Source: Pseudofrankia saprophytica
GTDB lineage: Bacteria > Actinomycetota > Actinomycetes > Frankiales > Frankiaceae
NCBI RefSeq assembly: GCF_000235425.2
Contig: NZ_KI912267.1
Span: 1,051,788 to 1,095,826 of the forward strand
Length of the DNA stretch: 44,039 bases
Direction of reading: 5' to 3'
Positions 27,492 through 32,549 of the stretch are shown here, piece after piece (position 1 is the stretch's first letter; each line of letters opens with the position of its first letter). A program made the position numbers and the translations under genes. The notes beneath the pieces were generated by a model that was not told where the DNA came from, did no database searches, and was given only the letters and a program-made list of their open reading frames with translations.

Positions 27492-29135
27492 ATGCCTGGG
27501 GGGTCAGAATTGTCCGGGTTTGCCGAGCCGAGCGCCGAAGAACCCGCTCACGCCGCGACGGACGTCACGCCGGTGCCCACCGACCCGCCGCGGTCCTCGG
27601 TCCCGCCGCCGCCACCGGTCACGCCGGCGCCGCTCGTCCCGCCGCCTTGGCCGGCGCCAACGCCGCCACTGGTCGCTTCGGCGCCACCGCTGACCCCGCC
27701 GCCCTGGCCGGTGCCGGAGCCGGCCGCCACATCGTCGACGGCCTCCCACACCTCCTGGGTGCCGCCGGCGAGCCTGCCGCCAGGTGTGCCCGGCTGGCCG
27801 GGAGGTCCCGGCGGTCCCGGCTGGACCGGCGGTCCCGGCTGGACCGGCGGTCCCCCGGCACCCGAGAGCCCGCCGCCGCGCCGGGCCCGCTCGCGGCGCT
27901 CGGCGGTCCTCGCGGCCGTCGGCGCCGCTACCGCGCTCGCCCTCGCCCTCGTCACGACCCTGGCCGTCGTGCTGACGAAGGGCGACGGCGGGAACGACGA
28001 TGCGGACGGAGACACCCAGCCCGCGGCCGCCACCGCGTCACCGGCCCAGGCGACGGCCAGTGCGTCGGGATCCGCCGGGGCGACGGCGAGAACCATCACC
28101 ATCGGGTTCCAGGGGCCGCTGTCCGGCGCCAACCAGCCGCTGGGCGACAACGCCGTCGGCGGCGTGAAGACCGCGATCGAGGAGGCGAACGCCCGCGGGA
28201 ACCTGCCCTTCACGCTGCGGCTCGCCACGTCCGACGACCTCGGCGACCCGGGCCTGGCGCCGCCGGCGGCGAACGCACTCGTCGCCAACCCTGACGTGCT
28301 CGCCGTCGTCGGGCCGATGTTCTCCGGCGCGACCAAGGCGAGCGAGCCCCTGTACTCCGGCGCGGGCCTGCTGTCGGTGAGCCCGTCGGCGGCGAGCCCG
28401 ATCCTGACCACGCAGGGTTTCTCGACGTTCTACCGGGTCGTCCCGACGGACGCCGCCCAGGGCCCGGCGGCCGCCGCCTACATCACCCGCGTCCTCAGGT
28501 CGGGCAAGGTGTATTCACTGGACGACCGGCTCGACTACGACATCGGCCTGTCCCGCGCCCTCGAGCAGGCGCTGCTCGCCAGCGATACCTCCTTCGTCCA
28601 CGGCAACGCCGACCCAGCCGGGGACTACTCCGCCGAAGCTGACAAGATCATGGCGGCGCATCCCGACCTGGTCTTCTACTCCGGCTACTACCCGGAGCTC
28701 GCGCTGCTGGCGAAGGCCCTGCGAGACAGGGGCTACGCCGGGAAGCTGATGAGCGGCGACGGGAGCCTCGACCCGGCATACATCTCCCTGGCCGGCGCGG
28801 CCGCGGATGGTACCTATTTCACCTGCGGCTGCCTGCTGCCCGCGGCCGACCCGACCGCGAAATCCTTCGTCACCTCGTACCGCAAGGTCAACGGGACGGA
28901 CCCGGGTACCTACTCCGCCGAGGCCTACGACGCCACCAACGCGATCATCAAGACGCTTACCGGACTGGGCGCCGACGCCACCCGCGCGTCGGTCACCACC
29001 GCCTTCGCCAAGGTCGACGTCCAGGGCGTGACCAGACACCTCACGTTCCAGCCCAACGGCGAGGTCACCGACGACAAGGTCTTCGTCTACCAGGCCCGCT
29101 CCGGCGCCCTGTCCCTGGTCGACTCCGTCTCATAG
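27492..29135 (+). CDS. Membrane-anchored LivK/LIVBP-like receptor with proline-rich cytoplasmic tail
   Basis: This 547-residue protein has a disordered N-terminus of about 130 residues rich in Pro (runs of PPPP, PPPWPAP), with repeated GGPGWTGG units. A transmembrane helix follows at about 138-160, then an Ala/Thr linker. The type 1 periplasmic-binding domain fills residues about 200-547 (ITIGFQGPLSGANQPLG, VVGPMFSGATKASEPLY, DLVFYSGYYPELALLAKAL). There is no signal peptidase site, so it stays anchored with the ligand domain outside. No permease or kinase domain is attached, so it looks like a sensor. It sits just after the rsb operon and may feed it. ATG 27492 is preceded by AGGA. Confidence 0.85.
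   Translation: MPGGSELSGFAEPSAEEPAHAATDVTPVPTDPPRSSVPPPPPVTPAPLVPPPWPAPTPPLVASAPPLTPPPWPVPEPAATSSTASHTSWVPPASLPPGVPGWPGGPGGPGWTGGPGWTGGPPAPESPPPRRARSRRSAVLAAVGAATALALALVTTLAVVLTKGDGGNDDADGDTQPAAATASPAQATASASGSAGATARTITIGFQGPLSGANQPLGDNAVGGVKTAIEEANARGNLPFTLRLATSDDLGDPGLAPPAANALVANPDVLAVVGPMFSGATKASEPLYSGAGLLSVSPSAASPILTTQGFSTFYRVVPTDAAQGPAAAAYITRVLRSGKVYSLDDRLDYDIGLSRALEQALLASDTSFVHGNADPAGDYSAEADKIMAAHPDLVFYSGYYPELALLAKALRDRGYAGKLMSGDGSLDPAYISLAGAAADGTYFTCGCLLPAADPTAKSFVTSYRKVNGTDPGTYSAEAYDATNAIIKTLTGLGADATRASVTTAFAKVDVQGVTRHLTFQPNGEVTDDKVFVYQARSGALSLVDSVS
27800..27853 (+). repeat. 18-bp tandem repeat coding GGPGWT
   Basis: Near-identical units of GGTCCCGGCTGGACCGGC recur about 2.5 times inside the proline/glycine-rich tail of the LIVBP-like receptor. 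The limits are approximate. Confidence 0.65.
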
Positions 29136-29264: not shown

Positions 29265-29348
29265 GATGATCGCCGCCTCCGTGTCGCCAGGGTCGCGAAA
29301 CTCGCCAGATCGCGACCACGGCAACACGGAGCTGGCGATCATGGCGGG
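29265..29348 (+). repeat. 84-bp palindromic element, upstream copy
   Basis: This element is 80/84 identical to 30401-30484 and in the same orientation. Internally, 33-bp arms (29266-29298 and 29310-29342) match as an inverted repeat at 28/33 positions around an 11-nt loop. Both ends carry ATGATCG or its complement. It looks like a REP- or MITE-like element. It ends 79 bp before the DUF559 gene. Confidence 0.9.
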
Positions 29349-29352
29349 GGGA

Positions 29353-29377
29353 TGTGGACAGGAGTGAGTTGTCCACA
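29353..29377. repeat. Inverted pair of DnaA-box-like sequences
   Basis: TGTGGACA (29353-29360) and TGTCCACA (29370-29377) are perfect inverted 8-mers with a 9-nt spacer. With the flanking base the right one reads TTGTCCACA, the box preferred in Streptomyces. It lies between the first palindromic element and the DUF559 start, so it could also be that gene's operator. Confidence 0.5.
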
Positions 29378-29427
29378 GGTGATGGTCATCGCTCTGGGGC
29401 GGGCCGTGTACGGCCAAGACTGCCGCC

Positions 29428-30405
29428 ATGGCTGTGGTGGAGGACAGGCACCGGCCAGCGGCGGACGCGGCACGCGGGACACGGCGGCGCGAGTACCCGG
29501 GGCTCGACGTGGCGCTGGCCTTCGCTCGCCGGCAGGACGGTCTGGTGACCTACGAGCAGGCACGCGGCGCAGGCCTCACCGACGGACAGTTACGTCAACT
29601 GGTGCGCGACGGGTCATTCTTCCGGCCATTTCGGGGCACCTACCTCGTGACGGGGTCGGATCATCTCTGGGGGCGGGTACGTGCCGCGCTGCACGGCAGG
29701 TCCGGCGCCGTCGTCTGCGGGTTGACCGCGGCGCGTCTGCTCGACCTGCGGGCGCTTCCGCTGCCCATCGAGGCGGAACCCGTGCACCTGCTGGTGCCCG
29801 ACACAGCCCGCCGCGTGTCCCCGCGTGGAGTCGTGCTGCACACCGGAGACCCGAGAGGCGGGCAACTGGTGTCCCTAGGCGGGATGCCCGTGACCTCAGT
29901 GCCTCGGACGCTCGCGGATCTCGTGCTCGGCTGGGAACGGTCCGAAGCTGTCGCACTCCTCGACGCGGCGCTGCACGACCACCAGATCCCGAACCTCGAC
30001 GCAGTGCGCGCGGCGCTCTTCGGCCGGGCGGGCGTGGCCGGCCGCTACCCCTGGCTTGCGCTGGTCGACGGACGGGCCGAGTCCGCGCTGGAGTCGTGGA
30101 TTCGACTGATCCTCCTCGACGGGAACATCCGGCCCGAGGAGGTTCAGTACCGGGTGCGGGATCCAGCCGGCCGGATCCTCGCCCGCGTCGACCTGGCCTG
30201 GCCTTCCCGCAAGATCTACCTGGAGGCCGACGGCGTCGCGTTCCACGGCTCGCCGGCCGACCCCAGGCCGTTGCACGACGATCGTGATCGGCAGAACCGG
30301 CTACGCCGCGCCGGTTGGCACCCGGTCCGCTTCACCTGGAAAGACGTGCTGGCTCGCCCGAGCTACATCGTCAGAACGGTCGGCGACGCCCTCGCCGATA
30401 GATGA
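29428..30405 (+). CDS. AbiEi-type N-terminal domain plus DUF559 (Vsr-like endonuclease fold) protein
   Basis: This 325-residue protein belongs to a large actinobacterial group. Residues about 25-75 form a winged-helix like the AbiEi antitoxin N-terminus (ALAFARRQDGLVTYEQARGA, then LRQLVRDGSFFRPFRGTYLV). The middle part is AbiEi-like. The C-terminus (about 215-325) has a DUF559/very-short-patch-repair-like nuclease fold: ESALESWIRLIL, VDLAWPSRKIYLEADG, FHGSPADP, and DRDRQNRLRRAGWHPVRFTW. Glu and Asp residues in these motifs match PD-(D/E)XK positions. No AbiEii toxin gene is adjacent. It is flanked by direct 84-bp repeats, and its TGA lies within the second. Confidence 0.85.
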   Translation: MAVVEDRHRPAADAARGTRRREYPGLDVALAFARRQDGLVTYEQARGAGLTDGQLRQLVRDGSFFRPFRGTYLVTGSDHLWGRVRAALHGRSGAVVCGLTAARLLDLRALPLPIEAEPVHLLVPDTARRVSPRGVVLHTGDPRGGQLVSLGGMPVTSVPRTLADLVLGWERSEAVALLDAALHDHQIPNLDAVRAALFGRAGVAGRYPWLALVDGRAESALESWIRLILLDGNIRPEEVQYRVRDPAGRILARVDLAWPSRKIYLEADGVAFHGSPADPRPLHDDRDRQNRLRRAGWHPVRFTWKDVLARPSYIVRTVGDALADR

Positions 30406-30484
30406 TCGTCACCTCCGTGTCGCCAGCGTCGCGAAACTCGCCAAATCGCGACCACGGCAACACGGAGCTGGCGATCATGGCGGG
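30401..30484 (+). repeat. 84-bp palindromic element, downstream copy
   Basis: This is the second copy, with arms 30402-30434 and 30446-30478 and an 11-nt loop. The four differences from the first copy are at offsets 9, 11, 27 and 44. Bases 3-5 of the element are the TGA stop of the DUF559 gene. Sequence on either outer side of the two copies is unrelated. Confidence 0.9.
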
Positions 30485-30638
30485 AAGCGGTGGTCGGCTC
30501 GGCGTGGAAATGGGTCAGAGCCCGCGCCACAGCCGAAAATCGACCCGCCGTCTTACTACGATCTTTTTGTTATGGATACGACGGAAGTGCGGTCCGTCTG
30601 GCAACCTCGTCCCGCCACGGCCCGGCACTGCGACCAGA
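30485..30638 (+). promoter_or_regulatory. Leader region of receptor kinase gene
   Basis: An unusually AT-rich stretch (CTTACTACGATCTTTTTG, 30552-30569, then TTATGGATACG) stands out against the GC-rich surroundings and is the likely promoter. Exact -10 and -35 boxes are not clear. Confidence 0.35.
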
Positions 30639-32549
30639 ATGATCGTTGATCGGGCCGCGGTCGCCGCGGCGCTGCCAGGCATCGAGATCGGCGGCCAGGT
30701 CGGCGCCGGTGCGTTCGGGCTGGTCCTAGCCGGCCGGCACCGCGCCCTGAACCGAGACGTCGCGGTCAAGGTCCTCCCGGCGAGCTCGGAAGGAAGCCTA
30801 GGCCCTGTGCCTGGACCCGGCGCGGCCCCGCAGGCCGGCCCCGTGCGAGTCCCGGCCGGCCGGTCCGGCCTCCAGACCGAGGCCCGGCTGCTCGCCAGCC
30901 TGGATCACCCGAACATCGTCCGGGTCTACGACTACGTCGAGACCGACGACCTGTCTCTGATCGTGATGGAGCTGCTGCCAGGCGGAACGCTCGCCCAGCG
31001 GCGAGCCGGAATGGCCCCCCAGACCGCATGCGCCGTGGCCCTGGCCGTGGCCGCCGCGCTGTCCTACGCCCACGAGCGCGGGGTGCTGCACCGCGACATC
31101 AAGGCCGACAACGTCCTGTTCGACGCCTCGGGAGTCGTCAAGGTCACGGACTTCGGCGTCGCCAAGCTCCTCGACGGGCAGTCCGCGACTGCCAGCGCGC
31201 AGGTCGGCACGCCGATGTACATGGCACCTGAGCAGATCGCCGGCGGCCGGCTCAGCCCCGCCACCGACATCTACGCCCTGGGTGTGCTGCTGTACCAGCT
31301 GCTCGCCGGGGCGCCTCCCTTCGACGCCAGGCAGCCGACTCCCGCGCTCCTCCATCAGCACCTGACCGTCATCCCACCCCCTCCGGCCGGCGTCCCGACC
31401 CCGGTCGCCGCCGTCGTGCTGCGTGCGCTGGCCAAGCGGGCAGCCGACCGCCATCCCTCGGCCCGGGTGTTCGCGCTCGATCTGGCGGCCGCGGGCGCCG
31501 CGGCGTACGGCGCCGGCTGGCCCGCCCACGCCGGCCTGCCGCTGCGTCTCGACGACGACATCCGTGAGGCGGCGTACCGCCCGCCCAGCCCGACGTGGCC
31601 GACGGCTGAAGCGGCTGGTACCCGGCCCCTGGCTGACGGCGCCCTGGCGAACTGGACGACTCCAACCGCCGGCCACGTCGCCACGGACGCGATCACGTCG
31701 CGGCCCGGCCACCCGGGGAACATCCCACCGCCATCGAATGGCGGCCCCCACCCCGGGCAGCCCTCCGGCCGTCCAGGCCGGCACCGCTGGGCGTACGCGG
31801 CCGCCGCCGGCGCGGCGACGGCCCTGGTCATGGCCCTGGTCGTGACGCTGCCACGCCTGGGCGGAGACCAAGGGTCACCTGGAGGCGGTACGAACTCCAC
31901 CACGGCGGCGAATCCCGGCGGGGGTACCGCCACGGCGGTGCCGCCGGCGGCCACGGCGACGTTGACCAAGCAGGCGCCAGGCGCGTCCGCCCCACTCGTG
32001 AGCGAGGACTTCTCCACGAGCAGGCTGGGTCCTGAATGGAAGGTCCTGGCCGGTAGTTGGAGGGTCGAGAACGGGGCGCTCGTCGGCCAGGCCGACCAGA
32101 CGGGGCCCTGGCCGGTGATCGCCCTGAGCCGGGACATCCCGAAGGACAGCGTGGTGTCGTTCCGCGCCAAACTCACCGGCGACGCAAGCCTCGTCGAGCT
32201 GATGATGCACCTGACGAACCGCAGGTACGTCCGCGCTTACCTCTATTCGATCGACCAGGCCGCCACGCTCGGTGACGGCACTCTCGACTGGGATCGCTCC
32301 TCCTCGGCCGGCGCCAATCCCGGAGGCCCGACAGTCGCGCAGAAGGATTTCTCCATCGCCCACGACAGGTGGTACAGCCTGACCATCACGGCGCGCGGCG
32401 GTGCCTACACCGTCGCGGTCGACGGGACGATCGTCGTCGAGTACGACGATCCGACCGGCACGCTAAGCCAGCAGGGCGGGATCGGATTCGTCGGCAACGG
32501 CTCGACCGTCCTGTTCGACGACCTCGTGGTCCGGGCACTCCCCACCTGA
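30639..32549 (+). CDS. Transmembrane Ser/Thr kinase with LamG/jelly-roll-type ectodomain
   Basis: This Hanks-type receptor kinase has 636 residues. The kinase domain spans about 15-280: VGAGAFGLVLAGRH glycine loop, VAVK with Lys44, HRDIKADN with catalytic Asp153, DFGVAKL, and GTPMYMAPEQ. An unstructured Pro/Gly/Thr linker leads to a TM helix at about 384-405. The outer domain (about 450-636) has EDFSTSRLGPEWKVLAGSW and ends FVGNGSTVLFDDLVVRAL, as in concanavalin-like/DUF1080 jelly rolls that bind carbohydrates. The start MIVDRAAVAAALPGIEIG is shared with the kinases at 41182 and 42899. A 25-residue Gly/Pro insert lies after Lys44. Confidence 0.9.
   Translation: MIVDRAAVAAALPGIEIGGQVGAGAFGLVLAGRHRALNRDVAVKVLPASSEGSLGPVPGPGAAPQAGPVRVPAGRSGLQTEARLLASLDHPNIVRVYDYVETDDLSLIVMELLPGGTLAQRRAGMAPQTACAVALAVAAALSYAHERGVLHRDIKADNVLFDASGVVKVTDFGVAKLLDGQSATASAQVGTPMYMAPEQIAGGRLSPATDIYALGVLLYQLLAGAPPFDARQPTPALLHQHLTVIPPPPAGVPTPVAAVVLRALAKRAADRHPSARVFALDLAAAGAAAYGAGWPAHAGLPLRLDDDIREAAYRPPSPTWPTAEAAGTRPLADGALANWTTPTAGHVATDAITSRPGHPGNIPPPSNGGPHPGQPSGRPGRHRWAYAAAAGAATALVMALVVTLPRLGGDQGSPGGGTNSTTAANPGGGTATAVPPAATATLTKQAPGASAPLVSEDFSTSRLGPEWKVLAGSWRVENGALVGQADQTGPWPVIALSRDIPKDSVVSFRAKLTGDASLVELMMHLTNRRYVRAYLYSIDQAATLGDGTLDWDRSSSAGANPGGPTVAQKDFSIAHDRWYSLTITARGGAYTVAVDGTIVVEYDDPTGTLSQQGGIGFVGNGSTVLFDDLVVRALPT

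Follow-up and report, generated by a model that had tools for sequence, protein, structure and literature searches.

A DUF559-type gene of Pseudofrankia saprophytica bracketed by dispersed palindromes: a candidate REP-like system with a predicted Vsr-like nuclease

The DNA analyzed here, referred to as the window, is a stretch of 44,039 nucleotides from an assembly of Pseudofrankia saprophytica (9.98 Mb in two contigs), and it contains a DUF559-type gene that has a copy of a palindromic repeat on either side (Table 1). The genomes and loci compared with it are labeled by G- and L-numbers, respectively. Self-comparison of the sequence aligns positions 29265–29348 with 30401–30484 in the same orientation at 95% identity over 84 bp; over a longer alignment, the identity is 91% across 93 bp. 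Copy 1 is an imperfect palindrome with arms of 33 nt that are 85% complementary and spaced by 11 nt. All four strands of the two repeats are predicted to fold stably as RNA (-46.2 to -59.2 kcal/mol, z -6.4 to -8.5), none of 200 shuffles of each strand being equally stable. An earlier note on this DNA had described a direct repeat pair, each copy of which is an imperfect inverted repeat, and a coding region ending inside the second copy, and these observations are confirmed. The repeat unit of 84 bp that it gave holds for the window pair, but the element shared family-wide is 77 bp long, and the GGCGGG that follows it is common to just the two window copies among 18 aligned.

The stop codon of the window gene overlaps the element by 4 bp, and the same overlap is observed at L039, L040, L148, and L149, the TGATC-type end of the element providing the stop; it is also found at L154 if the BLAST match is lengthened by one base. 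The longest frame of the kinase gene located downstream (30402–32549) has its first ATG within the second palindrome, the real start probably lying further on, and this frame has an additional match to the 3-keto-disaccharide hydrolase family.

Table 1. Features of the bracketed gene and its surroundings (positions within the window).
Feature	Position	Strand	Basis
Left neighbor, encoding a periplasmic binding protein; borders the orthologous site	27492..29135	+	Pfam, site comparison
Upstream 77-bp palindromic element, subfamily A	29266..29342	+	Repeat alignment, folding, covariance model
DUF559-type gene, 325 aa; AbiEi-like winged helix and Vsr-like PD-(D/E)XK domain (predicted)	29428..30405	+	
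AbiEi_4 match (residues 30-75), a domain that probably binds DNA	29515..29652	+	E 8.4e-10, over cut-off
Putative nuclease core: E222, D255, E266, D268, H273 (putative catalytic role)	30091..30246	+	Invariant, 32/32 aligned proteins
Downstream 77-bp palindrome; bases 2-4 are the stop codon of the gene	30402..30478	+	
TGA stop codon within the downstream palindrome	30403..30405	+	

The window protein exceeds the Pfam cut-off for AbiEi_4 only, its scores for MTES_1575 (22.8 of 38.2 bits) and DUF559 (16.4 of 20.6 bits) being below the respective cut-offs. The label DUF559/AbiEi proposed earlier needs this correction, but among 32 aligned proteins, the window protein included, matches at E ≤ 0.01 were obtained to MTES_1575 for 28, to AbiEi_4 for 25, and to DUF559 for 17. 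In Pfam, DUF559 is still listed as a protein of unknown function. The N-terminal part has profile matches to the AbiEi/AbiGi structures 6y8q and 9hlo (E about 0.008) and matches the AbiEi model in PADLOC (E 1.3e-18), while the C-terminal part has a profile match to 3hrl, an endonuclease-like protein (E 5e-4). In the AlphaFold model of the protein (pLDDT 91.3, pTM 0.86), residues 220-303 form a helix, three strands, a helix, and a strand, which is the order expected for a Vsr-type domain. The Vsr fold predicted for the C-terminal domain is based on this order, on the profile matches and motifs, and on general knowledge of such domains. A search of the own genome with the window protein yielded 12 matches.

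BLAST searches with the window element revealed many partial relatives in the same genome. A covariance model built from 18 copies of the element produced 99 matches over both strands at E ≤ 1, corresponding to 54 places, which were examined with 3 kb on each side using gene calls made by a custom script. The two weakest places (E 0.026 and 0.46) fall inside genes of this set and were regarded as chance matches, leaving 52 credible ones; none of the latter interrupts a called gene, and a few overlap a gene end by at most 33 bp. The solo positions comprise 26 codirectional, 19 convergent, 5 divergent, and 2 unassigned ones, as well as the 2 inside called genes. The window copies are the closest pair among the 54 places and the single one with members less than 3 kb apart. 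A bracket is likewise present at a second DUF559 gene of the same genome, with one of the copies absent from the 54.

Two subfamilies, A (including the window copies) and B, have identical ends (TGATCGCC...GGCGATCA) and different inner stems. Pairing between the arms within 46 copies exceeds that of permuted partners (0 of 500 permutations), with a contribution from the A/B split, and changes on both sides of a pair within the subfamily alignments number 7 vs. 3.1 in shuffles and 9 vs. 5.2 in shuffles. A family copy of 94 bp (L117; G000:C1:5231823-5231916) is about 17 bp longer than the 77-bp norm. Matches are present in each of the seven further genus members searched, numbering at least 73, 17, 71, 56, 77, 62, and 3 over both strands. 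The DUF559 loci of three genus mates gave matches identical to those of named contigs of Pseudofrankia asymbiotica, Frankia nepalensis, and Frankia sp. AgB1.9, in keeping with a genome of the Pseudofrankia type. Outside the genus, 10 of the 27 genomes searched from the rest of the family had 1 to 4 matches each, as did 2 of 23 more distant genomes; these matches are mostly weak, with one strong match in G029 (E 6e-17). The earlier note would have counted copies away from DUF559 genes against a gene-repeat partnership, and many of the 54 dispersed places are, taken literally, such copies; we do not read them in this way, because dispersed solos are the expected product of a REP-like system.

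At DUF559 loci of the genus, the covariance model showed that several further DUF559 genes have an element on either side, and a model-free self-comparison of the loci revealed further bracketing repeats of unrelated sequence. Once these other genes proved to be bracketed, the idea of a plain REP or terminator family with a chance bracket in the window was dropped. Bracketing was then scored de novo as the best direct or inverted match between the upstream and downstream flanks, relative to shuffles. For the first survey, 44 named loci were collected from GTDB genomes; it comprised 55 distinct genes, with 68 neighboring genes as controls. At a score of at least 27 and z of at least 6, a bracket was found at 27 of 55 DUF559 genes vs. 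3 of 68 neighbors; the counts were 26/55 vs. 1/68 at a score of at least 30, and 29/55 vs. 3/68 at a score of at least 24 with z of at least 5. Two of the three scoring control genes belong to loci whose DUF559 gene is bracketed (L180, L183). At the 27 bracketed genes, 33 of 54 repeat copies fold with z below -3, and near-perfect palindromes flank genes of Promicromonospora, Isoptericola, and Amnibacterium.

Six genomes of the Promicromonospora group contain 21 DUF559 genes at E ≤ 1e-10 (one genome having none), and 18 of these are bracketed. In this survey, which was controlled by cross-pairing, the neighboring-gene controls being those of the first-survey loci, the upstream and downstream repeats match each other at 18 of 21 loci compared to 1 of 94 cross-pairings within a genome. 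Overall, 44 of 75 distinct DUF559 genes are bracketed, as opposed to 3 of 68 neighbors (Fisher test, 4e-13), namely 10/29 in Frankiaceae, 20/24 in the Promicromonospora group, and 14/22 elsewhere. The 75 genes are what remains of 78 distinct loci after setting aside three with short flanks (L178, L190, L195), the duplicate L316, identical to L184, having been removed; an AbiEi_4 match of the own genome (C2:1714162) had no tblastn match and lies outside the tested set. The counting of L040 as bracketed rests on a different, low-complexity match, its element pair from the covariance model having been entered by hand.

The bracketed genes are drawn from six named families. When the bracket label was mapped onto a tree of 65 of the proteins, it required 11 changes, compared with 19.8 for shuffled labels (0 of 500 shuffles as low); hence, bracketing runs in clades. 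The stop codon is located within the downstream repeat in 30 of the 44 bracketed genes and 1-20 bp before it in another 9; the five genes with a repeat more than 20 bp past the stop include L149/L166, although the covariance model places the element of this gene over the stop. The repeats are mostly about 55-85 bp long, and the pairs are direct or inverted. No bracket was detectable at 31 of the 75 genes tested. Genes without repeats had also been named beforehand as an argument against the partnership, and this part of the collection agrees with that argument, but the control comparisons and the match of palindrome to clade stand. Four genes without a detected bracket (L041, L151, L152, L167) form one clade present in four genomes of the genus, possibly a fixed immobile branch.

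The palindromes follow the proteins. In Promicromonospora, paralogs of one genome have different palindromes, and their orthologs in other species have the same ones. Among 42 of the 44 bracketed genes (two were dropped as short or frameshifted), close proteins have related palindromes in 27 of 33 pairs, middle ones in 3 of 23, and distant ones in 0 of 805. Taken over all pairs, palindrome and protein have a weak rank correlation of 0.13, a value that 21 of 2000 permutations reached, most pairs simply being unrelated. Part of the clade match reflects shared inheritance, as proteins that share a palindrome often occupy the same orthologous locus. Thus, the loci Q, R, and U are orthologous, with a flank identity of about 82-95%; at locus R, both copies of the bracket have changed alike between two genomes. 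For the cassette P, the flanks in G066 and G068 match each other, and those in G058 are different.

Eleven joined bracket repeats were also searched for in nine genomes. Among the matches listed, each matching bracket repeat is confined to its own genome, except that the repeat of L039, from the genome of the window, also has a match in another genome of the genus that carries a cassette of the same type. Over both strands, there are at least 88 matches in Promicromonospora sukumoe, 98 in Catellatospora vulcania, 81 in Amnibacterium, and 79 in Oerskovia. Three genomes of Isoptericola have at least 25, 16, and 10, and these are bracket copies only among the matches listed. The solo positions (convergent/codirectional/divergent) are 11/7/1 in Promicromonospora, 7/12/1 in Catellatospora, 3/6/1 in Amnibacterium, and 1/2/0 in Oerskovia. 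The P. sukumoe palindromes (solos L228-L256 of G058) have nearly invariant arms of about 26 bp and a hypervariable central loop of about 8 nt. Among the matches listed, R2 in G058 occurs at 26 places beyond its bracket and R1 in G067 at 8, these variants of one orthologous locus being found only in the genome that holds the matching cassette; the families S, T, V, and Q have no copies beyond their brackets among the matches listed. Past the conserved arms, pairing of the outer flanks in three genera was not above permutation (the observed level was attained in 41, 98, and 436 of 500 permutations).

The hairpin family X (GTGGGCGTGATCGTTGC...) is abundant in G069, G067, and G065, and no DUF559 partner for it was found in the Promicromonospora relatives; it may have a different partner gene. 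Contrary to our prediction, hairpins X, Y, and Z from orthologous Promicromonospora sites were not found to bracket DUF559 genes. In the genus of the window, G006 contains family copies scoring up to 87.9 bits, yet only one DUF559 fragment at E ≤ 1e-10. Both are cases in which solos persist although no cognate gene was detected.

Orthologous sites were compared as cassette, solo, and empty states, a description that does not distinguish gain from loss at any one of them. At the L040 site, three genomes of the genus have the cassette (G000; G003, where the gene is broken; and G004, where one flank is past the contig end), one has a solo palindrome (G001), and three have neither (G002, G005, G006). 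The solo in G001 is the single-copy state that the earlier note had proposed to look for. The L044 cassette is missing in two relatives. At the window site, G006 lacks the gene as well as the repeats and contains 86 bp in place of 1.4 kb, and G005 has a decayed element and a truncated gene. The Promicromonospora solo L256 is missing at the orthologous site in four relatives, a fifth having a longer unrelated sequence there. At the L244 site, two relatives have the same family and three have different hairpins, as judged by eye. No target-site duplication was definable at the compared orthologous sites. At the convergent gene ends L244 and L249, compared in Promicromonospora relatives (L286, L289, L290, L306), the hairpin differs by species, as if replaced in place.

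In seven orthologous-site pairs, the DUF559 genes have dN/dS of 0.18-0.32, which supports purifying selection on the protein, as estimated from the sequences. Their synonymous divergence is higher than that of neighboring genes (dS 0.46-0.82 vs. 0.09-0.43), and sequence identity at orthologous sites falls around the palindromes. Taken together, the high dS and the drop of identity suggest that cassettes are replaced by divergent alleles, fast protein evolution not being the sole cause.

The location of the solos chiefly at gene ends, both in the genome of the window and in four other genera, is what one would expect if the palindromes were transcription terminators or mRNA-stabilizing 3' hairpins, of which the DUF559 gene merely has two; the occurrence of different hairpins at orthologous gene ends, which may vary between species, agrees with this as well. 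However, the two ends of one gene need no homologous terminators, and here they are homologous, as they are in just 3 of 68 neighboring genes. In addition, the repeats track the protein clade, and the family copies are dispersed. We therefore consider terminators or stabilizing hairpins an unlikely account of the bracket, although the palindromes may act as terminators in addition to their partnership with the gene.

Variable presence at orthologous sites, under no established target rule, is also compatible with MITE-like elements moved by some other transposase, the DUF559 gene being a passenger caught between two copies. Indeed, two solos can bracket unrelated genes, namely a regulator-like and a transporter-like gene at L243 and another gene at L224 in a second genome (gene kinds judged by eye from the translations). 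Such elements do not predict a separate palindrome for each DUF559 clade, 18 of 21 bracketed loci in the Promicromonospora group, or a stop codon within the repeat in 30 of 44 genes. Moreover, a search for Y1/HUH (RAYT-type) transposases (PF01797, Y1_Tnp, E ≤ 0.001) gave no match in the own genome, the same search being positive in 5 of 14 control genomes. A passenger gene thus appears quite unlikely.

AbiEi proteins bind inverted repeats, and the N-terminal part of the window protein matches AbiEi models in PADLOC and Pfam. The protein might accordingly be an AbiEi-like autoregulator with the palindromes as its operators and the dispersed copies as a regulon or decoys. This is hard to reconcile with the overlap of copy 2 with the stop codon of the gene itself, with the preference of solos for gene ends over divergent promoters, and with the invariance of the putative nuclease residues. 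The neighbors of the window gene encode a binding protein and a kinase rather than an AbiEii-like toxin. Autoregulation is in our view improbable.

Other candidates were rejected as well. RAYT membership is contradicted by the lack of Y1_Tnp matches in the own genome, an integron cassette array (attC) by the 54 dispersed places that form no tandem array and include a single pair less than 3 kb apart, and an AbiE toxin-antitoxin system by the lack of an AbiEii toxin gene among the two checked neighbors of the window gene. An Rfam scan returned five matches, every one under its gathering score, so that none identifies a known RNA. As for phage or plasmid carriage, neither the window protein vs. 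phages nor the Promicromonospora protein L184 vs. plasmids gave a tblastn match, and the window repeat had no match in plasmids.

The reading we prefer, and consider probable on balance, is that the window contains one cassette of a palindrome-plus-nuclease system, in which the nuclease would recognize and cut its cognate palindrome, spreading both solos and the cassette. The AbiEi-like winged helix would recognize the palindrome of its own cassette, either as an inverted repeat or as an extruded hairpin, and the Vsr-like domain would introduce a nick or a full cut. Solo palindromes could then be seeded between genes, chiefly at gene ends, by repair or copying at the break, which could also move or re-home the entire cassette. 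A cut solo repaired from a cassette via its two flanking copies would leave the gene between two repeats. The partnership of gene and palindrome itself is well supported, and we regard it as very probable; that cutting of the palindrome drives the spread is somewhat likely, with recognition, cleavage, and the copying route being steps that we infer. Comparative support is provided by recurrent bracketing, the clade match, cognate dispersal, presence and absence at orthologous sites, and purifying selection. The bracketed genes, the clade-matched palindromes, and the site states likewise favor the original suggestion of a mobile cassette or a REP/RAYT-like repeat-nuclease partnership.

If this is true, the strategy of an enzyme with dispersed palindromes has evolved more than once. 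We think it reasonably likely that a second REP-like system, evolved independently, exists in Actinomycetota and that its enzyme, a Vsr-like (DUF559) nuclease with an AbiEi winged helix, cuts its own palindrome; each nuclease clade would maintain a palindrome family of its own throughout the genome, with the cassette homing into solos and with turnover of the palindromes in concert with the enzyme. For a subset of DUF559 genes, which are numerous in actinobacteria, a substrate hypothesis can be read from the adjoining DNA, and since a predicted target accompanies every such gene, specificity is testable over dozens of natural pairs. The system is also a candidate answer to the origin of palindromic repeats that have no HUH transposase; CGTC repeats have been described without a dedicated transposase in the accessible part of a review (Di Nocera 2013, PMC3733652).

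Among known enzymes, the closest are the Vsr-like/DUF559 endonucleases: as far as the available portions of these reports go, Caulobacter VsrA bears a DUF559 domain (PMC12907096), and a novel Vsr-REase was named from MTES_1575 (PMC3710099). They have the same predicted nuclease domain as the window protein, and, unlike the genes considered here, are described in those portions without dispersed palindromes or bracketing. A further kind placed beside them is that of the Vsr-type homing endonucleases. A homing endonuclease gene would have alleles with and without the gene at a site and would spread by cutting the latter; the states observed at the L040 site are a full cassette, a lone palindrome, or neither, gain and loss not being distinguished there. 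The palindromes resemble MITEs of insertion sequences in being short, palindromic, intergenic, and variably present; in contrast, their partner is a bracketed nuclease gene of another superfamily, the parent-element search having been for Y1_Tnp.

In its logic, the arrangement matches REP/RAYT systems (REPtrons), the enzyme being unrelated. According to the accessible text of two papers (PMC2817692, PMC3733652), RAYT genes are flanked by two palindromes, often just behind the stop codon, the cognate palindrome is dispersed intergenically, and the RAYT gene co-evolves with the repeat and is more diverged than its neighbors. Similarly, a flanking pair of palindromes was found at 44 of 75 DUF559 genes, including the window gene; the cognate palindrome is dispersed outside genes, at 54 places (52 credible) in the own genome; and the DUF559 gene tracks its palindrome and is more diverged than its neighbors, part of the match reflecting shared loci. 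The differences concern the enzyme, a predicted Vsr-like PD-(D/E)XK domain with an AbiEi winged helix as opposed to the Y1/HUH transposase of RAYTs, and the repeats, which are mostly about 55-85 bp long and form direct or inverted pairs, whereas the same sources in their accessible parts give a length of 20-40 bp for REPs (Di Nocera 2013, PMC3733652) and describe RAYTs with inverted REPs (Nunvar 2010, PMC2817692). As the defining Y1/HUH enzyme was not found in the own genome, the system is not a member of REP/RAYT. In the open-access literature, insofar as its texts were available, we found no link between DUF559/MTES_1575 genes and bracketing palindromes, and the papers naming both DUF559 and "palindromic" apparently treat unrelated topics. 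This search left most subscription journals and preprints uncovered, and novelty is accordingly claimed provisionally: on the grounds of its enzyme the system would be new in kind, and it would be a variant if any pair of a gene and a palindrome counts as one kind.
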